Source: Nonlabens sp. YIK11 (lineage in GTDB: Bacteria > Bacteroidota > Bacteroidia > Flavobacteriales > Flavobacteriaceae). From it: a DNA stretch of 64,000 nt. Within the stretch, counting starts at the first letter, position 1; each line of letters opens with the position of its first letter. This document shows positions 3,546-64,000 of the stretch, piece after piece. Location of the stretch: the NCBI RefSeq assembly GCF_001413925.1, contig NZ_LBMJ01000001.1:1135001-1199000 (forward strand), written 5' to 3'. The translations under genes were made by a program, and so were the position numbers. The notes beneath the pieces were generated by a model. That model saw nothing but the letters and a program-made list of their open reading frames with translations. It was not told the DNA's origin and searched no databases.

Positions 3546-3561
3546 CGCTTTCGCGAAAGCG
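3546..3561. repeat. Dispersed palindrome CGCTTTCGCGAAAGCG, perfect copy
   Basis: Perfect 16-bp copy in the gap between the exbB-like gene and nhaB, preceded by TT. Neither gene reads through it. Confidence 0.95.
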
Positions 3562-3576
3562 GACCCATCATCAATC

Positions 3577-5109
3577 CTACAAATAATACACCACCATCGC
3601 GAGGCCCACGAGCGTCAATACAATGGTGTAGGGAAGAGCCATTTTGGCCATTCTACCGTAGGAAAGGTTGATCACTGGAGCAAGCGCCGATGTCAATAGG
3701 AACAAAAATGCGGCCTGACCATTAGGCGTGGCGACACTAGGCAAGTTAGTACCCGTATTGATGGCAATCGCAAGGTGCTCATAGCTTTCTCTGGTGATTT
3801 TACCGGCTTCATAGGCTGCCGTGACCTCATTAATGTAAACCGTGGCAACAAATACGTTGTCAGAGATCATACTTAGCACACCATTGGCTAGATAGAATAT
3901 GGCGGGTTGATTTCCTGGATCCTGATTCAACGCCCATTCAATAATTGGTGCAAAAAGATGCTGATCATGGATCATGGCCACGATCACAAAGAATACCACA
4001 AGAAGACCAGTAAATGGTAGCGCCTCTTCAAAGGCTTTACCTAGACTGTGCTCATCTGTGATACCCATGAATGCTGTTTGAACTACGATCAAGGCAAGCC
4101 CTATGAATCCAACCGGTGCGATGTGAAGTGCGAGAGCAGTAATCAATAAAACAGCCGATACTCCTTGAACGACAAGGGCATACTTCTCTTTTTTGGTACG
4201 TTCCTTATCACGTTTCTCCATCCATCCTTCAATAATTTGACGAACGACTGGAGGCATTTTTTGACCAAAACCGAAAGTCTTAGTGGTTTCCAACAAAACC
4301 GTCGTTAGCAATCCTGCAATCAATACAGGAATGGTAATAGGAGCCATTACCGTAAAGAACTCTACAAAGTCCCAGTTCATTTTAGTTCCTATCAACAGGT
4401 TTTGTGGCTCTCCTACGATGGTACAAACTCCACCTAGTGCCGTACCTACAACCCCATGCATAACAAGACTGCGCAAAAACGAACGGAATTTCTCCAGAGT
4501 CTCACCGCTCAATTGTTCCCTATCTAGGGTGTTGTCATTATCCAGATCCAGATCGCTGGAGTGAATCTTGTGGTATACATTATAAAAACCTAGTCCAACG
4601 CTTATCAAAACAGCAGTTACCGTAAGTGCATCGAGAAATGCAGATAAAACAGCACTCAACCCAACAAAGAAAAGAGAAAGGACAATTTTACTCTTGATCT
4701 TAGTGAACACCTTTACAAAGATGTACATGAGTAAAGGTTTCATGAAATAGATACCAGCCACCATGAAAACCAAAAGAAGGATTACTTCCAGGTTTTGGGC
4801 AACTTCTGCATAGACACCACCTAAAACGTGGTTTCCAGCTTCATCGAGTACCGCTTCATGAGTATCGTGGTCTATCTTATACATAGGATGTGTCAATCCT
4901 AAAAACAAGACCTGTAAGGCAAGCAATCCACCAGATTGTAGTGGATAACATTTAAGGGCCATGGCGAGACAGAAAATAAATTCTGCTATGAAGATCCATC
5001 CCATGGTGGTACCACTAACCACAAAAAATAAAACGGTGTTTAACACTAAAAAAGAAAGCATGGTTGTCTTGAACCATACTGGGCTGTTACCTAGAAAAGA
5101 TTTGAACAT
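3577..5109 (-). CDS. nhaB: Na+/H+ antiporter NhaB
   Basis: This 510-residue inner-membrane protein is an electrogenic sodium/proton antiporter. Assignment rests on close resemblance to enterobacterial NhaB throughout: [14 protein letters not shown] at the start, [37 protein letters not shown] and [17 protein letters not shown] are characteristic. About 11-12 membrane helices can be seen, and length matches the family (about 510). Its start codon abuts the stop of the amino-acid dehydrogenase gene (5110) with no gap, so both are one operon. That fits a marine cell maintaining a low internal sodium level. Confidence 0.95.
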
Positions 5110-6336: not shown

Positions 6337-6355
6337 TCAGCATTGGCTTATCCCA

Positions 6356-6363: not shown

Positions 6364-6401
6364 AAAAAGCATATATCGTTTTGGGGAATTTTCGCAATTT
6401 G

Positions 6402-7457
6402 TTATGGAGTATATATTTTACCGCCGCAATGGTCGTGCAATGCACCGGTCACGCTGGCAAGGCAGTTGTTCTCGTTGCGCAATCGCAGCACGCCCAGCAA
6501 TGCAAATATTATCGCTTCTTTCATATCGATAATTTCTGGAGCTGGCAGGTGTAGTTTTTGCGCTCTGTTATGGTCAATTAAATGGATGAGATAGTCATTA
6601 TATGCTCCACCACCAGTGACCACCACGCGGCTGTGATCTGGAAGACTGTGAGAAATGATCTGCGCGATGTGCTGTGTGTAGGTTGCGATCACATCCCTAG
6701 AATCTTCGAGTTGATCTAGAATGGGAAATATATAGGCATTGACCCATTCGATTCCCAAGGACTTGGGTGCAGGCAGGTCATAATAGGGCAACGCTGCCAG
6801 TTGTTTGAGGATAGTGGATTGTGGAGTTCCCGCTTTCGCGAAAGCGCCATTATCGTCATACTCTTTCCCTAATTTTTGAGCATAGTGGTTCAAAACGACA
6901 TTCACGGCACATAGATCGTACGCCTGACGGTTGCCATTTTGCTCGTAGCTAACGTTTGCAAAGCCACCCAAATTGAGGCAATATTCATAATCTGAAAAAA
7001 GCAATCGATCGCCAATAGGAACTAACGGTGCACCTTGACCTCCTAACTGCACATCTTGAACCCTGAAATCACAAACTACTCTATGACCGGTTAGTGTGGC
7101 AAGTTGTGGTAGATTACCTATTTGTAACGTGTGACCGTTCGCGGGATCGTGAGATATCGTATGGCCGTGAGAGCAAATGGCAAGAAGGTTATCGATCGCA
7201 TGATCTTCTATAAACTCCTTTATTACAAGAGCGAGATGATTGGTATAATCAAGATTGAGCTGTTTCAAATCGATGGCATTCAGTTCAATGCCTTTCTGTA
7301 GTCTTTGTTTCCACTTCAGGCTATAGTTTTTACAATCTTGATGGATGATCTTAAAGCTCCATTTGCCAGAATACTGCAGGTTAACATGAACTAAATCAAT
7401 GCCATCCAGCGAGGTGCCAGACATGACTCCTACAACGTTATAGTTCTGTGCTTTCAT
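6402..7457 (-). CDS. anmK: Anhydro-N-acetylmuramic acid kinase
   Basis: This cytoplasmic cell-wall recycling enzyme opens the 1,6-anhydro ring of anhMurNAc and phosphorylates it to MurNAc-6-phosphate. The N-terminal motif VGVMSGTSLDGIDLVHV is diagnostic. ICSHGHT, CDFRVQDVQLGGQGAPLVP, NLGGFANVSY and VVTGGGAYN follow in family order. I chose the ATG at 7457 (351 residues, family-typical, beginning MKAQNYN); the longer frame would run into the divergent acyl-CoA dehydrogenase gene. One perfect palindrome copy (6831-6846) lies in frame and encodes AFAKA within DNGAFAKAGTP, in a position that looks like a surface loop. Confidence 0.95.
   Translation of the reverse strand: MKAQNYNVVGVMSGTSLDGIDLVHVNLQYSGKWSFKIIHQDCKNYSLKWKQRLQKGIELNAIDLKQLNLDYTNHLALVIKEFIEDHAIDNLLAICSHGHTISHDPANGHTLQIGNLPQLATLTGHRVVCDFRVQDVQLGGQGAPLVPIGDRLLFSDYEYCLNLGGFANVSYEQNGNRQAYDLCAVNVVLNHYAQKLGKEYDDNGAFAKAGTPQSTILKQLAALPYYDLPAPKSLGIEWVNAYIFPILDQLEDSRDVIATYTQHIAQIISHSLPDHSRVVVTGGGAYNDYLIHLIDHNRAQKLHLPAPEIIDMKEAIIFALLGVLRLRNENNCLASVTGALHDHCGGKIYTP
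6831..6846. repeat. Dispersed palindrome, perfect copy inside anmK
   Basis: CGCTTTCGCGAAAGCG read in the AFAKA frame of anmK (minus strand). The gene frame is intact across it. Confidence 0.95.
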
Positions 7458-7469
7458 GCATTTTTTGGG

Positions 7470-7501
7470 TTGGATGTTACTGTCAAGAAACCGTAAATTT
7501 G
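7470..7501 (+). promoter_or_regulatory. Promoter of acyl-CoA dehydrogenase (TTG-N21-TAAATTTG)
   Basis: TTG at 7470-7472, a 21-base gap and TAAATTTG at 7494-7501 match the Bacteroidota promoter pattern. The start codon follows 28 bases after the -7 box. It sits in the 72-bp divergent gap with anmK. Confidence 0.6.
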
Positions 7502-7529
7502 CCGACAGATAAATAAAACAAATATACAG

Positions 7530-8672
7530 ATGGATTTTAGCCTTACGGAAGAGCATTTAATGATTAGGGATGCCGCCAGAGATTTTGCAAAAATGGAATT
7601 GTTGCCTGGTGTGATCGAGCGTGACAACCTACAAAAGTTCCCGACGGAACAAGTCAAGAAAATGGGCGAGCTAGGATTTCTAGGAATGATGGCAGATCCT
7701 AAGTATGGTGGTGGTGGAATGGACACTATCTCTTACGTTCTTGTGATGGAAGAACTTTCCAAAGTTGACGCAAGTGCCTCTGTAATTGTATCAGTAAATA
7801 ACTCACTTGTATGTTGGGGTCTGGATACCTATGGGAATGAAGCCCAAAAGGAAAAGTACCTTACTAAACTTACCTCTGGGGAATCAATTGGTGCCTTCTG
7901 TCTATCTGAGCCAGAAGCCGGTAGTGATGCTACCTCACAAAAAACCACAGCAATTGATAAAGGTGACCACTACGTACTGAATGGTACTAAAAACTGGATC
8001 ACTAACGGGAATAGCGCAGACTATTACCTAGTCATTGCACAAACTGATAAGGAGAAAAAACATAAAGGAATCAACGCCTTTATCGTTGAAAAAGGTTGGG
8101 ATGGTTTTGAAGTAGGTGTGAAGGAAGATAAGTTGGGAATACGCGGTAGCGACACACATTCATTGATTTTCAATGATGTTAAGGTTCCAAAGGAGAATAG
8201 AATAGGAGAAGACGGTTTTGGATTCAAATTTGCGATGAAGACACTTTCTGGTGGACGCATAGGTATTGCGGCGCAAGCTTTAGGTATCGCCAGTGGTGCT
8301 TATGAGTTGGCTCGTGATTACAGTAAAGTGCGTAAAGCCTTTGGTACAGAGATTTGTAATCACCAAGCAATTGCTTTCAAGTTGGCAGATATGCATACCA
8401 GAATTGCCGCTGCGAGACACCTAGTTATGAAAAGTGCCTGGGATAAAGACCAAGGCAACAGTTATGATATGAGTAGTGCCATGGCCAAGCTTTACGCTTC
8501 CCAAGTGGCTATGGATGTTACTGTGGAAGCAGTTCAGGTACATGGTGGTAACGGCTTTGTAAAGGAATATCATGTAGAGCGTTTGATGCGCGACGCAAAA
8601 ATCACACAGATCTATGAAGGAACTAGTGAGATCCAGAAGATTGTGATCTCGAGAGGCCTTTTAGCCGATTAA
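7530..8672 (+). CDS. Acyl-CoA dehydrogenase
   Basis: This 380-residue flavoenzyme catalyses alpha,beta-dehydrogenation of an acyl-CoA, passing electrons to ETF. The N-terminal helical domain begins MDFSLTEEHLMIRDAARDFA. The family signatures GAFCLSEPEAGSD and WITNG in the middle domain bind FAD and substrate. The C-terminal helical domain contains QVHGGNGFVKEYHVERLMRDA and ends with IYEGTSEIQ; Glu363 there is the usual catalytic base of short-chain and related dehydrogenases. Chain-length preference is not readable. It is transcribed alone: its own promoter lies upstream and a strong terminator (8695-8726) follows. Confidence 0.94.
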   Translation: MDFSLTEEHLMIRDAARDFAKMELLPGVIERDNLQKFPTEQVKKMGELGFLGMMADPKYGGGGMDTISYVLVMEELSKVDASASVIVSVNNSLVCWGLDTYGNEAQKEKYLTKLTSGESIGAFCLSEPEAGSDATSQKTTAIDKGDHYVLNGTKNWITNGNSADYYLVIAQTDKEKKHKGINAFIVEKGWDGFEVGVKEDKLGIRGSDTHSLIFNDVKVPKENRIGEDGFGFKFAMKTLSGGRIGIAAQALGIASGAYELARDYSKVRKAFGTEICNHQAIAFKLADMHTRIAAARHLVMKSAWDKDQGNSYDMSSAMAKLYASQVAMDVTVEAVQVHGGNGFVKEYHVERLMRDAKITQIYEGTSEIQKIVISRGLLAD

Positions 8673-8694
8673 CAACATAGACTTTTGATGAGAT

Positions 8695-10425: not shown

Positions 10426-10959
10426 TTGGAACGTCTCAAACCTTATTACCCGGTTTTTAAATTTGTAATCGTCTTTGGCGTGCTGTACATATTGCTATCG
10501 CTTGCCTATTATGGATACCTGCAGCTGGAATATACGGACTACAATTATCCAGATCCTATTACGGCTGCCGTGAGCAGGCAAACACAAACCATTTTGCAAT
10601 GGATGGGTTATGATGCCCAGATCTATAATGCACCAGGCAATCCTTCGGTGATGTTGTTTATTGATGACAAGATCGTTTTTAGGGTGATTGAAGGCTGCAA
10701 TGCGGTAAGTGTGATGTTGTTGTTTGCTGCTTTTGTTATCGCTTTTGCGAAAGCGTACAAAAAAACAATTCTCTTCATATTGATAGGGTTTGTGTTGATC
10801 TACCTGGTCAATCTTGCTAGATTGGTCTCCTTGGCGCTGGTGTACAAGAGGTTGCCAGAATACCAGACCATTGCCCACGATATAGCGTTCCCAGCAATTA
10901 TTTATGGCACCGTGATTTTACTCTGGATCTATTGGATCAGGAAACCTAAAAAAGCATGA
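10426..10959 (+). CDS. xrtF: Exosortase family protein XrtF
   Basis: This 177-residue multi-pass membrane protease/transpeptidase is the Flavobacteriia exosortase. The expected Cys-Arg-His triad is visible: Cys91 in EGCNAVSVMLLF, Arg132 in NLARLVSLAL and His151 in AHDIAFPAIIYG. About five membrane helices surround these sites. The start appears to be TTG at 10426 (MERLKPYYPVFK); I see no better ATG before the first helix. The stop overlaps the start of the next gene by 4 bp. A one-mismatch copy of the dispersed palindrome (10740-10755) encodes AFAKA in a loop after the Cys helix. No sorted substrate with a PEP-CTERM-like tail is visible in this window. Confidence 0.92.
   Translation: MERLKPYYPVFKFVIVFGVLYILLSLAYYGYLQLEYTDYNYPDPITAAVSRQTQTILQWMGYDAQIYNAPGNPSVMLFIDDKIVFRVIEGCNAVSVMLLFAAFVIAFAKAYKKTILFILIGFVLIYLVNLARLVSLALVYKRLPEYQTIAHDIAFPAIIYGTVILLWIYWIRKPKKA
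10740..10755. repeat. Dispersed palindrome, one mismatch, inside xrtF
   Basis: CGCTTTTGCGAAAGCG differs from the consensus by one base (T for C at position 7) and still encodes AFAKA in xrtF. Confidence 0.8.
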
Positions 10960-13600: not shown

Positions 13601-14961
13601 TTGCGGCGCATTAAAAATAAGGTCCTGTGTGTTCCCTCGATTTTTTGTTCCTTGTCAAAATGGTAGTGTTTGGAGTACGCTTTCGCGAAAGCGGACAATC
13701 CATAATTCTCAAACAGGTGACGAGCATCACGTTTGCTATCGAGAATAAACTGGACCCAGCTGTCCTCACGATCTGGAAACTCAATGATGAGGTACTCGCT
13801 TATCTGTGCAAAATATGCGGCACTCATCTCAAAAGGAACATTGCCGGTAAGCGTTATGTGGTGGATAAGCGCCAGCGCCAGGCTCAATTCTGGTTGCAAC
13901 TTGATGATGCGATCTGTAAAACTCTCTCTTTCTTCATTGCCAAAACCAATAGCTGGTGAAGGTTGCATCAAGTCGATGACGAGCGGCAATACTCTGTTGT
14001 GGCTGGATTCTAATTCGGTTTGATAGCAATGATCAATAGCTGCCTGATCGATATCGCTAACGATCACTTGTTCTATGGTTGCGGTAAGTTCTCTTGCAAA
14101 TGTCCCATCGTTGCCACCTAGATCGATGGCGGTTTTTACATTTAACTGGTTACTCCATTGCTGGATCAACTCTTTCTTTTTTTGAAAGGACGTCTGGTCG
14201 TAGTTGGTCTGGTTGTAATAAGAGGTCCATTCTGTTGACTCTGCCAGTGACATTCCTGCAATGTGCATTTCCAGCACTTTCAATATTTTAAGCTGTGATT
14301 CTTTTGAGATTTCAGGCGATTTTGCTGGCGATGAACTTGACTGACCTGAGTCGTTTTTGGCCATCAAGTGGATGTTGGGATAGATTACTGGGTGAAATCG
14401 GGTCTTCCAACTCAGCAGCTTTGCGGTTTCTTTCAAATCAACCCCATTAATCTGATGCGATAGAGTCTTGAGGTATCGGGCACCTCGTTTTTCTGCCAAT
14501 AACAAGACTCCAAAAAAGTGTTGTTCAAACTGCTGTAATGCGCGCCATGGTTCATTTTCCTTGTATCGCTCAATACTCAAGGTGTCTATAAAAACGGGCT
14601 TGCCTTTATGAAAGGTAATGTTGAAGGCACTGGCATCTTTGAGGGAAAAGCCACGTTCCAATAAAAACATCTGTAAACGCAAGGTGAGCTGTGCTGCGTG
14701 TTGGTATTGAGTGAAACACCACTCATAGGGATAATTGATAAAGGGAATTTGTTCTGGTACGAGAATTATCTTTTCCTCATCTCTTGATTCTTCTTGATGC
14801 TGGATCAACCATCCTTTTTTAAACAACTTTTCATAGATACCAGAGTTAACCGCGGCATCATATTCTTCAAAAAATACGGGATTGATCTGGCGTTTGAGAA
14901 CACCACCATCCATGAATACAAAGCCCGACGGATCCCTGTATGAAGCTGGTAGTTGCTTCAT
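13597..14961 (-). CDS. Kinase-like-fold domain fused to SAM methyltransferase
   Basis: This 454-residue cytoplasmic protein appears to have two parts. Residues about 75-200 contain LKDASAFNITFHKGKPVFIDT, which looks like the catalytic and metal-binding loops of protein-kinase-like folds. Residues about 240-454 are a class I methyltransferase with motif I AIDLGGNDGTFARE (278-291) and acidic motif IVSDIDQAAI. The later segment LALALIHHITLTGNVPF resembles motif IV of small-molecule methyltransferases. It follows a small membrane protein by 2 bp and overlaps the sulfatase-fold gene. A perfect palindrome copy (13678-13693) encodes AFAKA near the C-terminus. Acceptor unknown; the kinase resemblance is my reading, not tested. 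Confidence 0.75.
   Translation of the reverse strand: MKQLPASYRDPSGFVFMDGGVLKRQINPVFFEEYDAAVNSGIYEKLFKKGWLIQHQEESRDEEKIILVPEQIPFINYPYEWCFTQYQHAAQLTLRLQMFLLERGFSLKDASAFNITFHKGKPVFIDTLSIERYKENEPWRALQQFEQHFFGVLLLAEKRGARYLKTLSHQINGVDLKETAKLLSWKTRFHPVIYPNIHLMAKNDSGQSSSSPAKSPEISKESQLKILKVLEMHIAGMSLAESTEWTSYYNQTNYDQTSFQKKKELIQQWSNQLNVKTAIDLGGNDGTFARELTATIEQVIVSDIDQAAIDHCYQTELESSHNRVLPLVIDLMQPSPAIGFGNEERESFTDRIIKLQPELSLALALIHHITLTGNVPFEMSAAYFAQISEYLIIEFPDREDSWVQFILDSKRDARHLFENYGLSAFAKAYSKHYHFDKEQKIEGTHRTLFLMRRK
13678..13693. repeat. Dispersed palindrome, perfect copy in methyltransferase gene
   Basis: Read as AFAKA within LSAFAKAYSK near the C-terminus of the fusion protein; the frame is intact. Confidence 0.95.
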
Positions 14962-15232: not shown

Positions 15233-15940
15233 TTATGCGTTGATGGTGTTGAGGTTTACGCTTTCGCGAAAGCGATATCCAGATTTTCTAAGTAGATATA
15301 GGTAATAAATGTCCAAAGTAAAGACGATTATCCCTAAAACAAGCATGGCGCGATCCACGCCTCCAAGTCGAGTCACACCAAAAACGCCCAGTAATAGAGT
15401 AAGGCAAAAGGTTCCCAAAAGTTTGCTGTAGGCAATGATGAGATCGTGAGTGAATTTCTTTTTCATTTTCAAGAAGTTCGTGATAAATAGAATGGACATA
15501 ATGATGTTTATACCTAGACCTACATAATTGGCTCCAATTTTTGGCGTGTAAACCACAGCGCCTATGTGATTGATGATGAGTCCAGTTAGAAACAATCCTA
15601 CCACAATCCATATGAAGTAGGGTTTTCTCTGGGAAGATTTGCGTCCATAGGTATAGAAAGTGTAAACAATCAATAGATCCAATATAAACCAGATCGCATT
15701 GATATAATTGAGAAAATAAGATCCTACAATCATGAACCCACGTACGGTGTTATACAATTCCCAGCCTACATTAAGAAATAAGGCGACAAACGGTATGCAA
15801 TAGGTCTTTGATGAAAAACCTATCCGTATAGCTTGAAGGTAGGCAATAACCCAAAATAAGCCGCCAGAAATAACTAGGGCAGATTTAATGTAATAAAGGG
15901 TATCTCGATCGAAAAATGATAAAAACTCCATGATTTGCAT
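15233..15940 (-). CDS. Seven-helix membrane protein, possibly terpene-cyclase-like
   Basis: This 235-residue protein has about seven membrane helices and no soluble domain. Two polar motifs lie inside the helices: LNVGWELYN (near residues 57-65) and NAIWFILDLLIVY (near residues 81-93). Fungal and bacterial Pyr4/PaxB-type membrane terpene cyclases have a W-E pair and a W-x-x-x-D in similar positions and the same size, so that family is a possible match; I hold this loosely. A perfect palindrome copy (15259-15274) near the end encodes RFRES. The gene precedes the small-membrane-protein cluster and may or may not be part of it. Confidence 0.6.
   Translation of the reverse strand: MQIMEFLSFFDRDTLYYIKSALVISGGLFWVIAYLQAIRIGFSSKTYCIPFVALFLNVGWELYNTVRGFMIVGSYFLNYINAIWFILDLLIVYTFYTYGRKSSQRKPYFIWIVVGLFLTGLIINHIGAVVYTPKIGANYVGLGINIIMSILFITNFLKMKKKFTHDLIIAYSKLLGTFCLTLLLGVFGVTRLGGVDRAMLVLGIIVFTLDIYYLYLLRKSGYRFRESVNLNTINA
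15259..15274. repeat. Dispersed palindrome, perfect copy near end of membrane-protein gene
   Basis: Read here in the RFRES frame (GYRFRESVNL), a different frame from the copies in anmK and the methyltransferase gene. Confidence 0.95.
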
Positions 15941-18589: not shown

Positions 18590-18605
18590 CGCTTTCGCGA
18601 AAGCG
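18590..18605. repeat. Dispersed palindrome, perfect intergenic copy
   Basis: Flanked as TT-palindrome-AA, giving a 20-bp perfect inverted repeat, about 95 bp upstream of the metalloprotease gene. Confidence 0.95.
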
Positions 18606-20901: not shown

Positions 20902-20917
20902 CGCTTTCGCGAAAGCG
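20902..20917. repeat. Dispersed palindrome, perfect copy between groS and groL
   Basis: Extends to a 20-bp perfect inverted repeat with TT and AA flanks. In the groS-groL transcript it could form a ten-pair hairpin without loop or T-run. Confidence 0.95.
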
Positions 20918-25892: not shown

Positions 25893-25908
25893 CGCTTTCG
25901 CGAAAGCG
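25893..25908. repeat. Dispersed palindrome, perfect copy between miaB and topA
   Basis: Extends to a 20-bp inverted repeat (TT/AA flanks), upstream of both divergent promoters. Confidence 0.95.
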
Positions 25909-26122: not shown

Positions 26123-28663
26123 ATGGCAAAGAATCTGGTAATTGTAGAGTCGCCCGCAAAGGCAAAAACGATCGAGAAATTTCTAGGGAAAGACTATAAG
26201 GTAGCCTCTAGTTTTGGACATATCGCAGACTTGCCGGCAAAGGAACTGGGCGTTGCGGTGGATAAAGGCTTTGAGCCTAAGTACATCGTGAGCAGTGACA
26301 AGAAGGATCTGGTCAAGAAGCTCAAGAAAATGGCAGCCGAATCTGATATGGTATGGCTCGCGAGTGATGAGGACCGTGAAGGAGAAGCCATCGCATGGCA
26401 CCTAGCAGAGCAGCTGGATTTGAAAAAGGACAAAACCAAGCGTATTGTTTTTAATGCAATTACAAAAAGTGCCGTTCAAAAGGCCATTGACAATCCACGC
26501 AGCATCGACTACGACCTGGTCAATGCGCAGCAGGCGAGACGAGTGCTGGACAGAATTGTTGGCTACGAGATCTCACCTATATTATGGAGAAAGGTAAAAG
26601 GAGGCGCCAGTGCTGGTCGTGTACAATCTGTAGCTGTGCGATTGATTGTTGAGCGTGAGCAGGAAATATTAGATTTTCAAGGCGACAATTTTTATCGTGT
26701 GGATGCAGATTTTGCCACAGACGATAAGAAAACCCTTAAAGCCAAACTACCTTCAAACCTATCCAGCCGCAAGGAAGCAGAAGATTTCTTGGATTTAAAT
26801 AAAGGAGCCAAATTTCACGTATCAGATCTGGTTAAAAAACCAGCCAAAAAATCTCCTGCACCACCATTTACAACTTCAACCTTACAACAGGAAGCTTCCA
26901 GAAAGCTGTCTTTTAACGTGAGTCGTACCATGCAGCTGGCGCAAAGATTATATGAAGCCGGTCTAATTACTTATATGAGAACGGATAGTGTCAACTTGAG
27001 CAGCGAGGCAAAAAGTGGTGCAAAAGATGAGATCTTAAAAGCCTACGGTAAGGATTTTCATAAAGAGCGCAATTATAAAGGAAAGTCAAAAGGAGCTCAA
27101 GAAGCTCACGAGGCCATACGACCTACTGACTTTGCTTTGCATTCTTCTGGAGCAGATCGTGATCAGACCAGATTGTATGAATTGATCTGGAAACGCGCCA
27201 TCGCATCACAAATGAGTGATGCCCAGTTAGAGCGCACGAATGTTACTATTGCCGCAGACAAGCACGATAAGAACTTCACTGCCAGTGGTGAAATCGTCAA
27301 ATTTGAAGGTTTCTTGAAGGTGTATCTGGAAAGTACAGATGATGAAGATCTGGAACAAGAAGGATTGTTGCCGCCATTGAAGAAAGGACAACAACTTACC
27401 AATAAAAAGATTACTGCAACAGAGCGTTTTTCAAGACCACCTTATCGTTACAGTGAAGCGTCTCTAGTGAAGAAATTGGAAGAACTGGGTATAGGTCGTC
27501 CATCAACTTATGCACCTACCATTACTACGATTCAAAACCGTAAGTATGTAGAAAAAGGACAAAGTACTGGAGAGGAACGTGCTTACGTTCAGCTAGTTTT
27601 GAAAGATTCCAAAGTGGTAGAAAAAGAACTTTCTGAAACTACCGGTAGTAATAAGGGAAAACTAATACCAACCGATGTAGGCCGAGTGGTAAACGATTTC
27701 CTAGTAGAGCATTTTGAGAATATTCTCGATTATAACTTTACGGCAAAGGTAGAAGAGTCCTTTGATAACATCGCCGAAGGAAAAGAGGAATGGACCGATA
27801 TGATGGACCATTTCTATAAAAAATTCCACCCAACGGTTACAGATGTTGCAGAAAATGCAGAACGTGAAGTAGGCGAGCGAGTGCTGGGAACAGATCCTAA
27901 AACAGGTAAACCTATATCGGTTCGTTTAGGAAGATTTGGGGCGATGGCTCAAATTGGTTCTGTAGAAGATGAGGAAAAACCTCAATTTGCCAGTTTGTTA
28001 CCATCACAATCTTTGAACACCATTACTTTGGAAGAAGTGATGGACTTGTTCAAGTTGCCTAGAACTCTAGGCGAATACAATGGCCATCCAGTTGAGGTGA
28101 ACCAAGGTCGATTTGGTCCTTACGTGAAATTCAACGAGAAGACCTTCGTGTCCTTGGAAGATGGCGATGATCCCATGTCACTGACTTTTGAGCGTGCTGC
28201 AGAACTTATTGCTGCAAAAGAAAAGGCAGATGCTCCTATATATATGTATGACGAGCAACCGGTTACTAAAGGTGTAGGTCGTTTTGGTCCGTACATCAAA
28301 TGGGCAGGAATGTTCATCTCTGTCAACAAGAAATACGATTTTGATAACCTGACCAACGATGATATCGAGACCTTGATCAAGGATAAAATCCAGAAAGAGA
28401 AAGACAAGCTTATCGTTGACTGGGAAGAAGAAGGCATCAGGATTGAAAAAGCGCGTTGGGGTCGACACAATGTCATCAAGGGTAAAACAAAAGTGGAACT
28501 TGCTAAAACCATCGATCCTTTGAAAATCACTTTGGAGGAAGCTAAAGAGATGATCGCTAAAAAAGCTCCCAAGAAAAAGGCGCCAGCCAAGAAGAAGGCC
28601 GCCACTAAGAAAAAAGCACCAGCTAAGAAGAAGACCGCTTCCGCGAAAGCGAAAAAGAAATAA
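26123..28663 (+). CDS. topA: DNA topoisomerase I
   Basis: This 846-residue type IA topoisomerase relaxes negative supercoils. The Toprim domain starts KNLVIVESPAKAKTIEKFLG and has DEDREGEAIAWH (metal acids). The active-site tyrosine is in GLITYMRTDS (near residue 290). Downstream, C-terminal repeats of the GRFGPYVK/GRFGPYIKW type replace zinc fingers; I see no cysteine in the whole protein. The end is a Lys/Ala tail (KKKAPAKKKAATKKK) that should bind DNA. A one-mismatch palindrome copy (28636-28651) encodes ASAKA inside this tail, so the repeat has been absorbed there. The next gene starts 5 bp after the stop. Confidence 0.97.
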   Translation: MAKNLVIVESPAKAKTIEKFLGKDYKVASSFGHIADLPAKELGVAVDKGFEPKYIVSSDKKDLVKKLKKMAAESDMVWLASDEDREGEAIAWHLAEQLDLKKDKTKRIVFNAITKSAVQKAIDNPRSIDYDLVNAQQARRVLDRIVGYEISPILWRKVKGGASAGRVQSVAVRLIVEREQEILDFQGDNFYRVDADFATDDKKTLKAKLPSNLSSRKEAEDFLDLNKGAKFHVSDLVKKPAKKSPAPPFTTSTLQQEASRKLSFNVSRTMQLAQRLYEAGLITYMRTDSVNLSSEAKSGAKDEILKAYGKDFHKERNYKGKSKGAQEAHEAIRPTDFALHSSGADRDQTRLYELIWKRAIASQMSDAQLERTNVTIAADKHDKNFTASGEIVKFEGFLKVYLESTDDEDLEQEGLLPPLKKGQQLTNKKITATERFSRPPYRYSEASLVKKLEELGIGRPSTYAPTITTIQNRKYVEKGQSTGEERAYVQLVLKDSKVVEKELSETTGSNKGKLIPTDVGRVVNDFLVEHFENILDYNFTAKVEESFDNIAEGKEEWTDMMDHFYKKFHPTVTDVAENAEREVGERVLGTDPKTGKPISVRLGRFGAMAQIGSVEDEEKPQFASLLPSQSLNTITLEEVMDLFKLPRTLGEYNGHPVEVNQGRFGPYVKFNEKTFVSLEDGDDPMSLTFERAAELIAAKEKADAPIYMYDEQPVTKGVGRFGPYIKWAGMFISVNKKYDFDNLTNDDIETLIKDKIQKEKDKLIVDWEEEGIRIEKARWGRHNVIKGKTKVELAKTIDPLKITLEEAKEMIAKKAPKKKAPAKKKAATKKKAPAKKKTASAKAKKK
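28636..28651. repeat. Dispersed palindrome, one mismatch, in topA tail
   Basis: CGCTTCCGCGAAAGCG (C for T at position 6) encodes ASAKA at the Lys-rich C-terminus of TopA. Confidence 0.75.
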
Positions 28664-31352: not shown

Positions 31353-32018
31353 ATGGCACAATCTAAAACAACAAAGAAATTATTTAACATGGCTTACGGT
31401 CTAGGAGCCTCTATCGTAATTCTAGGCGCACTTTTCAAAATTTTGCACTGGGAACTTGATTTAGGATTTGCTGTACTTTCCGGTGGTACATTGCTTGCAA
31501 TTGGATTGATTACAGAAGCAATCATTTTTGCCATTGCTGCCTTTGAGCCAGTAGAAGAAGACCTTGACTGGTCGATCGTTTACCCAGAGCTTGCTGGTGG
31601 TCCCGCTTCCGCGAAAGCGAAAAAAACAACCGTCATCGAGGAAGAAGAAGCGTCAGGAATGTTATCCAAGAAATTGGATGCCATGCTTAAGGATGCCAAA
31701 GTAGATGCCGCATTGATGGAAAGTCTAGGAACAAGCATTAGAAGTTTTGAAGGTGCGGCCAAAGGAATCGCACCAACTGCTGAAGCAATGTCTTCAACTA
31801 AAAAATATTCTGAAGAGATGGCTCTTGCCGCAGCTCAAATGGAATCATTGAACAGCCTTTACAAAGTACAGGTAGAAAGTACCGCACGCCAGGCCGAAGT
31901 GAATGAGCAAGTAGCTCAAAACGCTGGACGCCTTAAAGATCAAATGGAAGGATTAGCAAATAACCTGAGCAGCCTTAATGGCGTTTATGGTAACATGCTA
32001 GGAGCCATGAAAGGATAA
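31353..32018 (+). CDS. gldL: Gliding motility protein GldL (T9SS motor)
   Basis: GldL is the inner-membrane stator of the proton-driven T9SS/gliding motor and works with GldM. Two N-terminal helices (about residues 15-33 and 38-62) surround GALFKILHWELDLGFAVLSGG, which contains the conserved charged residues that carry protons. The rest is a cytoplasmic helical tail rich in Ala, Glu and Gln, partly coiled coil. A one-mismatch palindrome copy (31604-31619) encodes ASAKA at the junction between the membrane part and the tail. Length, 221 residues, is typical. Confidence 0.96.
   Translation: MAQSKTTKKLFNMAYGLGASIVILGALFKILHWELDLGFAVLSGGTLLAIGLITEAIIFAIAAFEPVEEDLDWSIVYPELAGGPASAKAKKTTVIEEEEASGMLSKKLDAMLKDAKVDAALMESLGTSIRSFEGAAKGIAPTAEAMSSTKKYSEEMALAAAQMESLNSLYKVQVESTARQAEVNEQVAQNAGRLKDQMEGLANNLSSLNGVYGNMLGAMKG
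31604..31619. repeat. Dispersed palindrome, one mismatch, in gldL
   Basis: CGCTTCCGCGAAAGCG, the same one-base variant as in topA, encodes ASAKA in the linker after the membrane helices. Confidence 0.75.
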
Positions 32019-36031: not shown

Positions 36032-36062
36032 GGGAAAACTTTAGCGTTCATTTTGATAGATG

Positions 36063-36078
36063 CATCTTTGCAAAGATA
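36063..36078. promoter_or_regulatory. Back-to-back -7 boxes in a palindrome (DUF983/ABC-F)
   Basis: ATCTTTGCAAAGAT (36064-36077) is a perfect palindrome. Read on the minus strand it gives TATCTTTG, a full -7 match for the DUF983 gene; on the plus strand it gives CATCTTTG, one base off, 18 bases before the ABC-F ATG. The two promoters would share the same DNA. No -33 TTG is seen for either. Confidence 0.5.
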
Positions 36079-36088
36079 CAATTTTACT

Positions 36089-38017
36089 ATGCTTAACATC
36101 CATGATTTGCACGTCAGCTTTGGCGGCGAACCGCTTTTTGAAGAAATAACTTTTAGGCTCAACGCAGGCAATCGCGTGGGCTTGATAGGAAAAAATGGAG
36201 CTGGAAAATCCACGATGCTTAAGGTCATAGCCGGCGATATTCCTGCAGATCAAGGTTCGCTCGCGATTGAGAAAGATGTGAGTATAGGGTTCCTTAGACA
36301 GGACATCGATTTTGAAATGGGTAGAACGGTGCTGGAAGAGGCGTATACCGCTTTCGCGAAAGCGAGATCCATAGAAGCCGAAATGGATAAAATCAACCAA
36401 CAACTAGCCACAAGAACGGACTATGAATCTGATTCCTATATGGAATTGATACAGTCCATAGGCGACCTCACTCATGAGTACGAGATCATTGGCGGTTACC
36501 AGTACAAAGGTGAAACCGAAAAAATCCTGAAAGGTCTCGCTTTCAAACCAGAACAGTTTGACAAGCTTACAGACGAGCTGTCTGGTGGATGGCGCATGAG
36601 GATTGAATTGGCAAAATTGCTGTTGGAAAAGCACGACATCCTGCTGCTGGATGAGCCTACCAACCACCTGGATATAGACTCCATACTTTGGCTGGAGCAA
36701 TTCCTGCAAACCTATCCTGGTGCCGTGGTGATCGTGAGCCACGATAAGATGTTTCTTGACAACGTGACCAATCGTACTATTGAGATAAGCCTAGGTCGCA
36801 TCTATGACTACCCAAAACCGTATTCGAAATTTCTGGAGTTGCGTGCAGAGCTTAGAGAGCAGCAAGCCGCAACGGCCAAGAATCAGCAAAAGGAAATTGA
36901 GCGCACAGAAAAACTGATTGAGAAATTTAGGGCCAAAGCCAGTAAAGCCACCATGGCGCAATCACTGGTCAAGAAGCTCAATAGAATGGATGTGGTCGAG
37001 GTGGATCAAGTGGATAATGCTGCCATGAACATCAATTTTTCCCAGTCCATACAGCCTGGAAAAATTGTTTTGGAACTGGAACAGATCCAGAAGTCCTATG
37101 CCGATAAAAACGTACTGCGCAACATCGACCTGATGGTGGAACGTGGAACAAGACTGGCCTTTGTAGGTCAAAACGGTATGGGAAAATCTACACTGGCCAA
37201 AATCATTGTAGGAGACATCAAGGATTACAAGGGTAAAGTCAACCTGGGACACAATGTTCAGTTGGGCTATTTTGCACAAAATCAAGCCGAATATCTGGAT
37301 GGAGAGAAAACCATACTGGATACCATGATCGACGCTGCAGACGATAGCAATAGGGTTAAGGTGCGAGACATGTTGGGATCTTTCCTATTCCGTGGTGATG
37401 AGGTGGAGAAAAAGGTGAAAGTCCTGAGTGGTGGTGAGCGCAACAGGTTGGCATTATGTAAACTTCTGCTGCAGCCATTCAACGTGTTGATTATGGATGA
37501 GCCTACCAACCACCTGGATATACAATCAAAAAACGTCCTGAAACAGGCACTTGTCAAGTTTGAAGGCACCTTGATCGTGGTGTCTCACGACCGTGAGTTT
37601 TTGCAGGGATTGACAGACTTGGTGTATGAATTTCGCGATCATAAATTACATTCGTACCTGGGCGATATCAATTATTATCTGGAGCAACGCAAGGCTCGCG
37701 ATATGCGTGAGATTGAGAAGAGCACTAAGGTGGAGACGAGTTCGCTTTCGCGAAAGCGAGATACCTCAGACAGCAAACCATCCTATGAGCAGCAAAAAAA
37801 GATCAAATCACTCAACAACCGTTTGTCCAATGCTGAATCTGAGATCAATAAGCTAGAGCGTGATATCAAAAAAATGGATGCAGATCTCGCAGCGAATTAT
37901 GAAGAGACCGCAGCAGATGCTACTTTCTTTGACAAGTATAAGGCCAAGAAAAAATCGCTGGATGAATGGATGAAAAAGTGGGAAGAAGTATCTGAAGAAA
38001 TAGATGCCTTGGACTAG
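36089..38017 (+). CDS. ABC-F family ATPase
   Basis: This 642-residue soluble protein has two ABC domains and no membrane part, as in ribosome-associated ABC-F proteins. The first ABC has GKNGAGKST (residues 34-42), LSGGWRMRIELAKLL and LLLDEPTNHLDID. The second has GQNGMGKST, LSGGERNRLALCKLL and LIMDEPTNHLDIQ. A charged linker lies between them, and a C-terminal coiled coil covers about 560-642. I chose ATG 36089 (MLNIHDLHV) over an upstream ATG because it begins at the first ABC strand. Two perfect palindrome copies lie in frame: one gives AFAKA (36349), the other LSRKR (37743). Such proteins act on translation or antibiotic release; the exact role is unknown. Confidence 0.92.
   Translation: MLNIHDLHVSFGGEPLFEEITFRLNAGNRVGLIGKNGAGKSTMLKVIAGDIPADQGSLAIEKDVSIGFLRQDIDFEMGRTVLEEAYTAFAKARSIEAEMDKINQQLATRTDYESDSYMELIQSIGDLTHEYEIIGGYQYKGETEKILKGLAFKPEQFDKLTDELSGGWRMRIELAKLLLEKHDILLLDEPTNHLDIDSILWLEQFLQTYPGAVVIVSHDKMFLDNVTNRTIEISLGRIYDYPKPYSKFLELRAELREQQAATAKNQQKEIERTEKLIEKFRAKASKATMAQSLVKKLNRMDVVEVDQVDNAAMNINFSQSIQPGKIVLELEQIQKSYADKNVLRNIDLMVERGTRLAFVGQNGMGKSTLAKIIVGDIKDYKGKVNLGHNVQLGYFAQNQAEYLDGEKTILDTMIDAADDSNRVKVRDMLGSFLFRGDEVEKKVKVLSGGERNRLALCKLLLQPFNVLIMDEPTNHLDIQSKNVLKQALVKFEGTLIVVSHDREFLQGLTDLVYEFRDHKLHSYLGDINYYLEQRKARDMREIEKSTKVETSSLSRKRDTSDSKPSYEQQKKIKSLNNRLSNAESEINKLERDIKKMDADLAANYEETAADATFFDKYKAKKKSLDEWMKKWEEVSEEIDALD
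36349..36364. repeat. Dispersed palindrome, perfect copy in ABC-F gene (first)
   Basis: Encodes AFAKA in YTAFAKARS, about residues 87-92, in a helix-like segment after the first Walker A domain start. Confidence 0.95.
37743..37758. repeat. Dispersed palindrome, perfect copy in ABC-F gene (second)
   Basis: Encodes LSRK (within SSLSRKRDTS) just before the C-terminal coiled coil, in the third possible frame. Confidence 0.95.
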
Positions 38018-42518: not shown

Positions 42519-43884
42519 GAAGCTTCAAATAGTTGGGTTGATGGTGATTTTGTTCGCTTTCGCGAAAGCGAATTCCCAACAAGCACCAGAACCTTTATTA
42601 TCCAGGCAACAAGCCGTTGAGCTGATGTTGCAAAACAATTTTGATATCCAGATCTCTGAAAATCAACTTGAGGTTGCAGATAATAATAAGGATATACTCA
42701 ATAGTGGTTATCTGCCTACTGTTTCCGGTACCGCTGGTGCGAACTATAGTAATACGGACAATCGAACTGAATTTGGCTCGACAAGGGATGACAACGGTGT
42801 GCTCGTTCCGCCTAGAGCTCCCGTAATTTTAAATGATCAAATTTCACGGCGTTATAATGCGAGCATAGGCGCAGATTATTTGCTGTTTGATGGTTTGGGT
42901 AGATTCTATAACTATAAGATTTTACAGGAACAGTACAACCTTTCAGATCTGCAGGTAAGACAAGTTGTTGAAAGCACCACCGTGCAGCTCATGACAGTGT
43001 ATTATGAAGTTGCCCGGCTTACTGAAAATCTAAGCATATTTAGAGAGACACTCAACAATACTCGAGAAAGAGAGACGCGCGCCAAATATCAATTTGAATA
43101 CGGCCAGGTCAATAAACTTGAGGTGCTCAATGCACAAGTTGATATCACTACAGACAGCATCAATATCCTCAACGCCAAACAGAACCTGGAAAATGCCAAA
43201 AGGGATCTGAATCTTGTCATGAATCGAGAGATTGATGCCGCTGCATTTACGGTTGATACGCTGGTAACTCTTAAGCCAGAATTAGAGGTCATCAGTTATT
43301 TGGAAGAAGTGGATGATAACGTACGCCTCATGCTCGCGCGTAGCAATGTCCAGATAAGCGAATGGGATGTGAATACCGCCAAAGCATTGCTGCTACCTAG
43401 AATAGGTCTGAGCGGTAGCTACGGTTGGAATAGGGCAGAAGATCCAGAAAGCGCGTTTTTCCCATCCAGGACGAGTACTAGTGATGCCCTAAATTTAGGC
43501 GCTACACTTACTTGGGACATTTTTGATGGTGGTCGTTCCATCACAGGCATTAGAAATGCAAAAATCACTGCCGAAAATGAACGTCTGCGTTTACAGCAAA
43601 CTGAAAAGCAAGTGATGCGTGACATAGCAAATGCTCGTGGGAATTATCAAAATGCCATTGCTATTTACAATTTGCAAACCCAGAACGTAGAGACCAACCA
43701 AAACAATTTTGATAGATCTCAAGAACGTTATCGCTTGGGACAAATTACAAGCATAGAATTACGTCAAGCCCAAATCAATCTGGTCAACGCCCGAACCACT
43801 CGCAATCAAGCAAAGTATGTTGCTAAGCTTGCAGAAATACAGCTCCTGCAACTGGCTGGCGAACTTTTATCACAGCCTTTATGA
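42511..43884 (+). CDS. TolC-family outer-membrane efflux channel
   Basis: This 457-residue protein should form the trimeric outer-membrane channel of the RND system. Two TolC repeats can be seen in the coiled regions, each closing with helix-rich segments such as REDSRAKYQFEYGQVNKLEVLNA-type sequence (RETRAKYQFEYGQVNKLEV) and RSQERYRLGQITSIELRQAQ. I chose ATG 42511 over ATG 42490 because it overlaps the permease stop (ATGAATAA) and gives a clean signal peptide, MNKKLQIVGLMVILFAFAKA. A perfect palindrome copy (42555-42570) encodes FAKA at the end of that signal, so it supplies the signal-peptidase A-x-A site. Confidence 0.92.
   Translation: MNKKLQIVGLMVILFAFAKANSQQAPEPLLSRQQAVELMLQNNFDIQISENQLEVADNNKDILNSGYLPTVSGTAGANYSNTDNRTEFGSTRDDNGVLVPPRAPVILNDQISRRYNASIGADYLLFDGLGRFYNYKILQEQYNLSDLQVRQVVESTTVQLMTVYYEVARLTENLSIFRETLNNTRERETRAKYQFEYGQVNKLEVLNAQVDITTDSINILNAKQNLENAKRDLNLVMNREIDAAAFTVDTLVTLKPELEVISYLEEVDDNVRLMLARSNVQISEWDVNTAKALLLPRIGLSGSYGWNRAEDPESAFFPSRTSTSDALNLGATLTWDIFDGGRSITGIRNAKITAENERLRLQQTEKQVMRDIANARGNYQNAIAIYNLQTQNVETNQNNFDRSQERYRLGQITSIELRQAQINLVNARTTRNQAKYVAKLAEIQLLQLAGELLSQPL
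42555..42570. repeat. Dispersed palindrome forming the TolC signal-peptide end
   Basis: Perfect copy, flanked TT/AA (20-bp inverted repeat). In the gene frame it encodes AFAKA, placing AKA before NSQQ. Confidence 0.95.
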
Positions 43885-45039: not shown

Positions 45040-45055
45040 CGCTTTCGCGAAAGCG
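45040..45055. repeat. Dispersed palindrome, perfect copy upstream of the giant gene
   Basis: Lies 160 bp upstream of the predicted -33 box of the giant-adhesin promoter, outside any gene. Confidence 0.95.
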
Positions 45056-61413: not shown

Positions 61414-61418
61414 AAATT

Positions 61419-62387
61419 ATGAGAATTAATAACAACAAAAACGGAATGATGAAATTTTTAGTTAGCATATTTCTTCTTTTAATAGGTTATAGCGCCTTTG
61501 GACAGCAAGATGCTCAATACACTCAATATATGTACAACACCATCGCGATTAACCCAGCTTATGCTGGGAATCGCGGTATGTTGAGTGCGATTGCATTACA
61601 CCGCAGTCAGTGGGTTGGACTTGATGGAGCACCAGAAACCCAAAGCATAAGTCTACACAGTCCAGTAGGTCTTGGGCGATTGGGACTAGGTCTCTCAATT
61701 GTTAATGACAAGTTGGGTCCATCTAGTGAAACCTATTTCAATGGTGACATTAGTTATACCATACAGACCAGTGTGGAAGGGCGATTGAGTTTTGGTTTAA
61801 AATTGGGTGCTCATGTGCTCGACGTCGATTTCAATAAGTTGAATTTACCTCCTGGAACCGTTGATCCTGCTTTTGAAAACAATATTGACAATCGTTTGAC
61901 ACCTAACATTGGTACAGGTATCTATTATCATACAGATAAATTTTATGCCGGTTTGAGTGCGCCTAACTTATTGCGTAACGAGCATTTTGAAGCTTCAAAC
62001 AATACCAATAACAATTCATCATTTGTAGCAGCAGAGCGTATTCACTATTACTTGACCGGTGGTTATGTATTTGATATCAACCCTACTTTGAAATTCAAAC
62101 CTAGTACCATGATAAAAGCTGTTGCTGGTGCACCTTTACAAGTCGATCTTACGGCTAATTTCTTGATCAGTGAGAAGTTGACCTTAGGCGCTGCGTATAG
62201 ATTGGACGCTGCAGTTAGTGGTTTGATAGGATATCAGGTAAGTGATCAGGTAAGCCTTGGTTTTGCCTATGACCGTGAGACTACAGAGCTTGGTAACACA
62301 CAATTTGACGATGGTAGTTTTGAGGTGTTTGTTCGATTTGAACTCTTTAACTCCTACAATCGCATGTTGACGCCTAGATTCTTCTAA
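61419..62387 (+). CDS. Type IX secretion membrane protein, PorP/SprF family
   Basis: This 322-residue outer-membrane beta-barrel protein belongs to the PorP/SprF family, partners of proteins with type B C-terminal domains. A signal peptide (FLVSIFLLLIGYSAFGQ) is followed by the family signature DAQYTQYMYNTIAINPAYAG and by RSQWVGLDGAPETQ. The alternating strand pattern continues to LGFAYDRETTELGN. It starts 5 bp after the giant gene and ends 9 bp before the OmpA-type gene, forming one operon. The adjacency suggests it handles export or surface anchoring of the giant protein. Confidence 0.93.
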   Translation: MRINNNKNGMMKFLVSIFLLLIGYSAFGQQDAQYTQYMYNTIAINPAYAGNRGMLSAIALHRSQWVGLDGAPETQSISLHSPVGLGRLGLGLSIVNDKLGPSSETYFNGDISYTIQTSVEGRLSFGLKLGAHVLDVDFNKLNLPPGTVDPAFENNIDNRLTPNIGTGIYYHTDKFYAGLSAPNLLRNEHFEASNNTNNNSSFVAAERIHYYLTGGYVFDINPTLKFKPSTMIKAVAGAPLQVDLTANFLISEKLTLGAAYRLDAAVSGLIGYQVSDQVSLGFAYDRETTELGNTQFDDGSFEVFVRFELFNSYNRMLTPRFF

Positions 62388-62396
62388 GACCTAGTT

Positions 62397-64000
62397 ATGA
62401 CAAACAACGTGAGAAGATATGGTATTGCAATGTTGCTGGTATTTGTGTTCGCTTTCGCGAAAGCGCAAACAAACCCCAACAAAACATCACCAAAGGCAGA
62501 AAGAGAGTACGACAAATACGCCTTTATCGATTCAAGGGAAATCTTTGAAAAGATGGCCAATAAGGGATTCAAGAGTGTGGAGATCTTCTCAAAACTTGGA
62601 GACACGTATTACTTTAACAACGATTATCAAAATGCGTTGAAATGGTACAATCAACTCTTCAAGTTGGATAATGAGACCATTCCTTCAGAATATTATTTTA
62701 GATACGCCCAAGCGTTGAAAAGTGACCGCCAGTATGCTAAAGCAGACCGGTTGCTAAAAACTTTTGCGGTCAAAGGCGAAAAGGATAGCAGATTACAATC
62801 TTTGGAAAATGCACCCAATTATCTAACGATAGTTGATTTCCAAAAGGGAAGATTTGAGGTAGAACCCGTTTCCATAAATACAAATTATCAGGATTTTGGA
62901 ACGGCGTATTACGGACCAGCGCAAGTGGTTTTTGCTAGCGCAAGAGATACCGGTGTTTTCTACAAGAGACGTCATTCCTGGAATGAGAAACCATTCCTGG
63001 ATCTTTATGTGGCAGATCGTGATCAGCAAGGGAACATGAGTAATGTAGAGAAGTTTGATTCTAGGATCAATTCCATCTTTCATGAGAGTACACCTACATT
63101 TTCTAAGGATTTGAATACCGTTTATTTCACTCGTAACAATTATGAAGATGGCACATTAGGAAAGGATGACGAGCGAGTAAGCAGACTACAGATCTTTAAA
63201 TCTGAAAGAAAGGACGGTAAATGGAGTGAGCCGCAAGCCGTCGAGTTTGCTGAAGGCGGATTCAGTACTTCACATCCAGCGCTTACGCCTGATGGGAAGA
63301 CACTATACTTTTCAAGCGATATGCCTGGAACTATGGGAACTGAAAGTACCTTCAAGGAAACCGACATATGGAGAGTCACTATTGAAGACGACGGCTCTTA
63401 CAGTGATCTAGAAAACGTAAGCATTGTTAATACAGAAGGCCGTGAAAGCTATCCCTATATCAGCCGTAGCGGCAATCTGTATTTTGCCAGTAATGGGCTG
63501 CAAGGTTTAGGTGGACTTGACATTTTTGTCTCTACCATCAATAAAGATGGATCGCTTAGTAATCCAGTCAATATAGGTGAGCCTGCAAATAGTCCAGATG
63601 ATGACTTTGCTTTCATCGTTGATGAAAGTGTCAATACGGGTTACTTTAGTTCTAATAGGGTGAGCCAAGGCGAGAATGACGACATCTATAGATTTGTACA
63701 GATTGAAGACCTGAGAGAAACCTGTGAGCAAATCATTACAGGCACCGTGACCAATGCGATCACCAAAGAAGCTCTAGAGGACGCCATGATTTCTGTGGTG
63801 GATATCAACAACAACATTGTCGTTACCAGACGGTCAGATAGAAATGGGAAGTACGCTTTAAAACTAGAATGTGATAAGACTTTCTTCATTAGAGCAGAAA
63901 AGCGAGAATTCAATACTGCAGAGGAACTTGTTAATACACCTACAACTACTGGTGTTATTGAAGTTGACCTGGCACTTGATCCAGAATCCTATAAAGGTAG
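62397..64000 (+). CDS. OmpA-family T9SS-associated lipoprotein-like protein, partial
   Basis: The gene starts at ATG 62397 and runs off the window with no stop (at least 534 codons). A signal peptide ends FVFAFAKA before QTN. It then has TPR-like helices (about residues 45-125, TYYFNNDYQNALKWYNQLFK), a WD40/PD40-type beta-propeller (about 150-440, repeated TLYFSSDMPG and LYFASNGLQGLGGLDIF elements), and the beginning of a carboxypeptidase-regulatory-like domain (ITGTVTNAITKEALEDAMI). This order is typical of OmpA-family proteins encoded next to PorP/SprF genes; the OmpA domain itself would lie beyond the end. A peptidoglycan-anchoring role for the locus is inferred from the family. Confidence 0.9.
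   Translation, partial: MTNNVRRYGIAMLLVFVFAFAKAQTNPNKTSPKAEREYDKYAFIDSREIFEKMANKGFKSVEIFSKLGDTYYFNNDYQNALKWYNQLFKLDNETIPSEYYFRYAQALKSDRQYAKADRLLKTFAVKGEKDSRLQSLENAPNYLTIVDFQKGRFEVEPVSINTNYQDFGTAYYGPAQVVFASARDTGVFYKRRHSWNEKPFLDLYVADRDQQGNMSNVEKFDSRINSIFHESTPTFSKDLNTVYFTRNNYEDGTLGKDDERVSRLQIFKSERKDGKWSEPQAVEFAEGGFSTSHPALTPDGKTLYFSSDMPGTMGTESTFKETDIWRVTIEDDGSYSDLENVSIVNTEGRESYPYISRSGNLYFASNGLQGLGGLDIFVSTINKDGSLSNPVNIGEPANSPDDDFAFIVDESVNTGYFSSNRVSQGENDDIYRFVQIEDLRETCEQIITGTVTNAITKEALEDAMISVVDINNNIVVTRRSDRNGKYALKLECDKTFFIRAEKREFNTAEELVNTPTTTGVIEVDLALDPESYKG
62450..62465. repeat. Dispersed palindrome forming the OmpA-type signal-peptide end
   Basis: Perfect copy encoding AFAKA directly before QTNPN, so that the A-K-A ends the signal peptide, as in the TolC-family gene. 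Confidence 0.95.

Follow-up and report, generated by a model that had tools for sequence, protein, structure and literature searches.

We report that a 16-bp palindrome, CGCTTTCGCGAAAGCG, for which we found no earlier report, occurs in hundreds of evenly spaced copies in genomes of the marine genus Nonlabens and is kept strongly enough to have reshaped at least one protein. The element was detected in a stretch of 64,000 nucleotides from Nonlabens sp. YIK11 (contig NZ_LBMJ01000001.1, positions 1,135,001 to 1,199,000; this whole stretch is referred to as the window). The palindrome looks like a mark of self-DNA, read perhaps during DNA uptake, and our data point tentatively, with a chance somewhat short of even, to a DNA uptake sequence (DUS) serving natural transformation. 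Beyond what the first-pass annotation of the window had described, we find that the palindrome extends into an inverted repeat of ~46 bp, of which it forms the core, that copies exclude one another at short range, that their positions are conserved, that gaps between them lie over prophage and accessory DNA, and that two further genera carry the element.

Copy number and expectation

The window holds 12 perfect and three one-mismatch copies, at exactly the coordinates given in the first-pass annotation, and no further copies at two mismatches. The rarity that had been claimed for a random 16-mer was confirmed, with 0.01 copies expected in the window (100 dinucleotide shuffles). Likewise, copies lie both between and within genes as described, four of them (18590, 20902, 25893 and 42555) have TT/AA flanks, and by direct reading the 16-mer is free of stop codons in every frame. 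The sites are as follows (ORF, open reading frame; no strand is assigned to the palindrome itself):

3546..3561, no strand, perfect site, intergenic, between two minus-strand ORFs
6831..6846, no strand, perfect site, inside ORF 6402-7556(-), reads AFAKA
10740..10755, no strand, one-mismatch site, in overlapping unassigned ORFs
13678..13693, no strand, perfect site, inside ORF 13597-14961(-), reads AFAKA
15259..15274, no strand, perfect site, close to the 3' end of ORF 15233-15940(-), reads RFRES
18590..18605, no strand, perfect site, intergenic, TT/AA flanks
20902..20917, no strand, perfect site, either intergenic or within a doubtful ORF of 97 aa, TT/AA flanks
25893..25908, no strand, perfect site, divergent gap before topA, TT/AA flanks
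28636..28651, no strand, one-mismatch site, 3' end of topA
31604..31619, no strand, one-mismatch site, inside gldL
36349..36364, no strand, perfect site, ~codon 99 of the ABC-F-like gene 36053-38017(+)
37743..37758, no strand, perfect site, ~codon 564, in a variable linker of the ABC-F-like gene 36053-38017(+)
42555..42570, no strand, perfect site, ~codon 22, signal-peptide-like, in the outer-membrane efflux protein gene 42490-43884(+), TT/AA flanks
45040..45055, no strand, perfect site, intergenic, with a tRNA gene on one side and an ORF of 5344 aa on the other
62450..62465, no strand, perfect site, signal-peptide-like N-terminal FAFAKAQ, in an ORF open at the window end

Genome-wide, 680 copies were counted in the own genome (G000, 3.26 Mb; other G numbers denote compared genomes), so the element is not confined to the window. 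In an 844-kb chromosome sample, consisting of the window and 39 stretches of 20 kb taken at ~80-kb steps, 166 perfect copies were found against 0.0001 to 0.04 expected under Markov models from the 1st to the 5th order (0.04 at the 5th), which is far above expectation. The comparison with relatives that the first-pass annotation had proposed gave 180-737 copies in all 23 Nonlabens genomes examined, own included, and none in 16 other-genus genomes included in the same search; copy number and genome size showed a correlation of 0.25 (20 genomes). The palindrome is present at loci of both N. ulvanivorans and N. tegetincola, and the GldM encoded in the window shares 60% identity with that of N. ulvanivorans. 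Copies with 0, 1, 2 and 3 mismatches number 166, 40, 13 and 7 in the sample, and the outermost base is the deviating position in 21 of the 40 one-mismatch copies. The idea of a high-copy genome palindrome without a described role in Bacteroidota was thus borne out as to copy number, and among the papers listed by our literature search (titles and abstract openings) we saw no description of the palindrome or its role in Nonlabens, Flavobacteriaceae or Bacteroidota.

An extended symmetric site

On both sides the 16-mer continues into C-poor, G/T-rich arms, so that it lies at the centre of an inverted repeat of ~46 bp. Over the 166 sites the flank bias is symmetric, with the consensus gg.Tttt..t.atTT read toward the core from either side; in the inner 16 bp of flank the share of C, otherwise 19%, is down to 6-7% and G/T reaches 70%, and the bias, which is nearly equal at ORF and intergenic sites, fades over ~25 bp. 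The two outer bases of the core vary near-independently: matching non-C outer pairs number 1, 5, 2 and 1 in four genomes against 0.4, 3.0, 1.8 and 0.5 expected, i.e. there is little compensation. Because these bases vary nearly independently, the pattern suggests recognition of half-sites by a symmetric protein rather than formation of a hairpin.

Placement along the chromosome

In the sample, 103 of the 166 sites (62%) lie in ORFs and 63 in the non-coding 8% (simple ORF caller). Since 91.6% of the sample is coding, this places intergenic site density ~7-fold above that in ORFs. Tandem, divergent and convergent gaps have similar densities (0.94, 1.02 and 0.79 sites per kb), and a promoter or regulator site was set aside for lack of any gap-type preference. 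Within ORFs the preferred reading frame gives AFAKA (64 of 103 sites, 17 of those 64 in the first 40 codons), and several ORF sites resemble signal-peptide ends.

Sites occur about every ~4.8 kb and are uniformly distributed, with a mean of 3.9 and a variance of 2.7 per 20 kb over the 39 stretches; no long site-poor sector or cluster is present among these stretches, where the origin and terminus were not located and a small gap is possible. Moreover, close neighbours are avoided. Only two adjacent gaps are shorter than 1 kb (27 expected) and none is shorter than 500 bp (14 expected). Not one of 2000 uniform placements was as low. The 14-mer core likewise avoids close neighbours in G020, G002, G022, G013 and G242, with a weak trend in G226, and its density is 0.18-0.26 per kb in six of seven sampled genomes and 0.12 in G226.

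DNA without sites

A single one of the 39 stretches (L165; G000 C1 2640001-2660000) is without a perfect copy and has one two-mismatch copy; its proteins include phage-type terminase, portal, capsid and tail proteins, i.e. a prophage-like structural block. Copies are likewise absent, at up to three mismatches, from the second contig, which is 29 kb long and may be a plasmid. Three sampled gaps of at least 11 kb have no copy at two mismatches or fewer, one lying over the ORF of 5344 aa and two over SusD-like, glycoside-hydrolase and related genes. The former ORF (45379-61413) fills the longest site-free gap of the window. It lies in a stretch of 49% GC, and 10- to 12-mers occurring 23-24 times in the window are perhaps its internal repeats.

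Conservation of positions and an overridden protein stretch

We compared the window with 20 stretches from congeners that are syntenic to it (19 are 20 kb long and one 12 kb; that of G004 is nearly identical to the window). Site positions are kept across the genus while the flanking sequence diverges. Specifically, the site before topA (25893) is present with at most two mismatches in 18 of the 19 stretches that cover it, the two ABC-F sites (36349 and 37743) in 18/20 and 17/20, and the site in the efflux protein gene (42555) with at most one mismatch in 17/20. The one-mismatch sites in topA (28636) and gldL (31604) have a counterpart with at most two mismatches in just 4/20 and 6/20 stretches, respectively.

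At the first ABC-F site, AFAKA is read in 18 of 19 Nonlabens rows and in none of 73 rows of other genera, where EAFTEIK is the commonest reading (18 rows). The codons ACC GCT TTC GCG AAA GCG are identical in 16 of the 19 Nonlabens rows while adjacent synonymous positions vary, a pattern that argues for maintenance of the sites at the DNA level. In the ABC-F gene, the only gene so examined, the palindrome has therefore arisen by substitution, overriding a stretch of conserved protein.

Phylogenetic spread and an outer-base dialect

Among 397 Flavobacteriaceae genomes, 48 have any copy of the 16-mer: four Nonlabens, G242 (630 copies), G226 (153) and 42 genomes with 1-13. In a set of 392 Bacteroidota genomes, copies of any number are found in 12, and only the own genome exceeds two. 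All 18 genomes examined of the genus of G242 (g221) have 369-905 copies of the 14-mer, and G226, the sole genome examined of its genus (g205), has 408. A quick concatenated-protein tree (five proteins; four for G242) places G242 beside G226 and Leeuwenhoekiella. In thinned-set tests a clade of G242, G226, Leeuwenhoekiella and Nonlabens was not rejected (p 0.145) and the same clade without Leeuwenhoekiella was rejected (p 0.0001). Two 21.5-kb loci of Leeuwenhoekiella are free of copies at up to three mismatches. This implies either a single origin plus a loss or more than one gain. By a loose criterion without a null, sites of G000 are matched by five of 11 site rows in G242 (two of these may be the same site) and by two of 10 in G226 (which probably represent a single site). 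In the GldM tree G242 groups with the g91 genomes G112 and G322, and for topA, gldK, gldL and gldN with G226 and Leeuwenhoekiella (L169, L171, L172); transfer of gldM alone is possible.

In low-copy genomes nearly all perfect copies, 33 of 34, fall within ORFs (16 loci from 13 genomes; 92% coding), and in several of those with listed places the copies recur at spacings of 2446, 933 and 3460 bp in long ORFs. These clusters probably reflect horizontal transfer, with a palindrome-bearing lineage perhaps as the source. In stretches from 11 low-copy genomes (L109-L122) the long ORFs with palindrome clusters are common to different genera, and one ORF pair (L109 3641-8607) matches annotated resistance-nodulation-division (RND) efflux permease genes.

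In G022 the 14-mer has its usual density (46 in 220 kb) and the inner core is intact. The outer base is C in 64% of its half-sites compared to 92-96% in G000, G020, G002 and G013, 87% in pooled single stretches of other Nonlabens, 85% in G242 and 65% in G226. Since the inner core is intact, G022 appears to represent a dialect, i.e. a shift in outer-base preference and not decay. Accordingly, we dropped the notion that the spread in 16-mer counts (180-737) means variable site density; in G022, the low case sampled, the spread is a dialect effect. With respect to other genera, recurrent palindromes that we inspected sat mostly at one shared coding position, and a search for dispersed 11- or 13-mers in 65 other-genus loci gave weak matches in five loci, none of which resembles the palindrome.

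A candidate DNA uptake sequence

A DNA-uptake signal had been among the options listed in the first-pass annotation, and it is the one we favour, with the uptake role itself proposed by analogy. A DUS is the best fit because the spacing, the ORF share together with the non-coding excess, and the graded mismatches match traits reported for DUS and uptake signal sequences (USS) of Neisseriaceae and Pasteurellaceae. Sections of PMC1939737 describe even spacing, a non-coding excess and graded mismatched forms, and give the share of sites in ORFs as 65% in H. influenzae and 35% in N. gonorrhoeae; DUS dialects are described for Neisseriaceae in part of PMC3630211. As with these elements, the palindrome occurs in hundreds of near-identical copies with lineage dialects, it is overrepresented in a lineage-specific manner, and its spacing is even, clearly so in five of six further genomes and weakly in G226. 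It differs in being a perfect 16-bp palindrome with long symmetric arms and in its Flavobacteriaceae host.

Mechanistically, the double-stranded site would be recognised by a symmetric protein complex during DNA uptake. Fragments with a site would be taken up and recombined more often, so that copies accumulate by drive and spread into permissive positions such as gaps, signal peptides and linkers, at times overwriting conserved codons, while density stays near one site per uptake-sized stretch. As to the reader, we can only guess at the surface protein and outer-membrane partner required for transformation in Riemerella. According to the parts consulted of PMC8459023 and PMC7965970 Riemerella is naturally competent, and the former lists ComEC, DprA, ComF, RecA and four others as essential, including a DUF5689 surface protein and a TonB-receptor-like outer-membrane partner. 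Moreover, R. columbina prefers its own DNA, in that 1 ug of own DNA competes and the same amount from R. anatipestifer or E. coli does not (PMC7965970); the motif table given there for R. columbina goes no further than 10 bp. ComEC was detected in every one of the 26 genomes tested for it, and DUF5689 in 27 of 28. The fuller proposal, that the ~46-bp site is a palindromic, orientation-free mark of self-DNA in Bacteroidota, read by a Flavobacteriaceae outer-membrane route, that it drove amino-acid replacements and that its dialects limit gene flow, would be the first such signal known to us and is more doubtful.

Several points weigh against a role in uptake. Known DUS and USS are not palindromes, and Karlin et al. 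linked the evenness of their spacing to replication, repair or compaction (both in sections of PMC1939737). Moreover, 10 ug of foreign DNA did reduce R. columbina transformation, F. johnsoniae was non-competent in the same study (PMC7965970), and the Riemerella uptake model is termed speculative by its authors (PMC8459023). ComEC and DUF5689 are also present in palindrome-free genomes, ComEC in 10 of 14 controls. The DUF5689 tree has 26 rows and that of the outer-membrane partner 25; G060 was omitted from both despite its DUF5689 match, and G112 from the partner tree. In the DUF5689 tree, which does not follow the palindrome cleanly, G242 and G226 group with two Nonlabens (G022 and G013; 100/100) and with the palindrome-free G154, and G013 keeps the strict outer base. 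A literature search on Nonlabens and transformation yielded no paper combining both. Finally, a chromosome-binding protein, the main rival, accounts equally well for the spacing and the symmetry, and it is also compatible with the loss of sites from mobile DNA. As a separate observation, the DUF5689 proteins of G022 and G013 group with those of G242, G226 and G154 (L241, L256, L246, L253, L243) and their outer-membrane partners group with the genus, as if one gene of the pair had been exchanged.

Alternative explanations

In the rival just named, a nucleoid or segregation protein would bind every ~4-5 kb and organise or tag the chromosome, with close sites redundant and hence rare. The symmetric ~46-bp site, with preferred bases at -4 and -12 to -15 that in our reading lie roughly one and two turns of the helix away from the centre, agrees with this, as do the uniform counts, the exclusion below 1 kb, the 14-mer density in most sampled genomes and the retention of the same places throughout the genus. 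We nevertheless regard it as unlikely, given the lack of long site-poor or site-rich sectors (within the limit on origin and terminus stated above), the patchiness among related genera (present in g221 and g205, with none in the two Leeuwenhoekiella loci) and the absence of any candidate protein among our findings. Nucleoid-occlusion, parS and matS sites form long site-poor or site-rich sectors; terminus depletion or origin clustering of this kind is, within the same limit, not seen in the sample, and a nucleoid-occlusion or parS-like site was rejected for this reason. The TTTC...GAAA half-sites are reminiscent of parS and Noc sites, and Noc, SlmA, parS and MatP-type sites are likewise symmetric protein sites, but the palindrome is far more numerous.

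The first-pass annotation had likened the element to HIP1 (highly iterated palindrome 1) of cyanobacteria, which would be made and kept by methylation-linked mismatch repair. The likeness holds for the high copy number in and between genes, the palindromic structure and the one-base deviations, which favour the outermost position as part of PMC4390886 reports for HIP1, and is weakened as to the enzymes. That source ties HIP1 to orphan methyltransferases, and the own genome has no match to PF00145 or PF01555, the two methyltransferase families searched. Each of these is found in 11 of 19 Nonlabens tested, and three of the 19 (G000, G009 and G007) have neither. Furthermore, HIP1 is an octamer and the palindrome is twice as long, with 16 fixed bases and biased arms, and it shows neighbour exclusion, whereas the words 'spacing' and 'evenly' are absent from PMC4390886; a HIP1-type origin is thus improbable. 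We think even less of a Chi-like signal acting both ways, at which a RecBCD/AddAB-type nuclease would stop and G/T-rich DNA 5' of the site would load RecA. Chi sites are short and directional, in contrast to a perfect palindrome, which as a 16-nt single strand would be expected to self-fold, and neighbour exclusion would be left unexplained. The G/T-rich DNA 5' of the core on both strands does fit, as does the density, which is near that of Chi in E. coli K12, with its 1008 sites (as given in part of PMC1939737).

An RNA hairpin, i.e. a terminator, a processing signal or an extragenic element like the repetitive extragenic palindromic (REP) sequences and bacterial interspersed mosaic elements (BIME), would agree with an inverted repeat enriched between genes. 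It is highly improbable in view of the ORF share, the similar density in all gap types, which is not that of extragenic elements at transcript ends, and the near lack of outer-base compensation; in addition, the right arm is A/C-rich without a T run, and the CGCG centre is fixed though it would be a loop in RNA. Restriction avoidance was also dropped: outside the sites TCGCGA occurs 170 times (166 expected), and CGCG is somewhat below expectation (1290 vs 1672).

Implications

Neisseriaceae and Pasteurellaceae are the best-known cases of DNA uptake that depends on sequence. Should the DUS reading hold, its palindromic counterpart among a large group of marine bacteria would mean an independent origin of self/non-self DNA discrimination, the Flavobacteriaceae outer-membrane uptake machinery would become testable, the palindrome would be a fingerprint with which to trace DNA transfer out of these genera, and dialects would limit gene flow between species. 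If the element instead organises the chromosome, it would be an unusually regular site of that kind.

Copies in a viral collection

The 16-mer is present in 41 stretches of a viral collection. Among these sequences, the 37-kb contig IMGVR_UViG_3300040781_000495 (L226, L229, L209) has six palindromes and perhaps represents a prophage boundary or host DNA.

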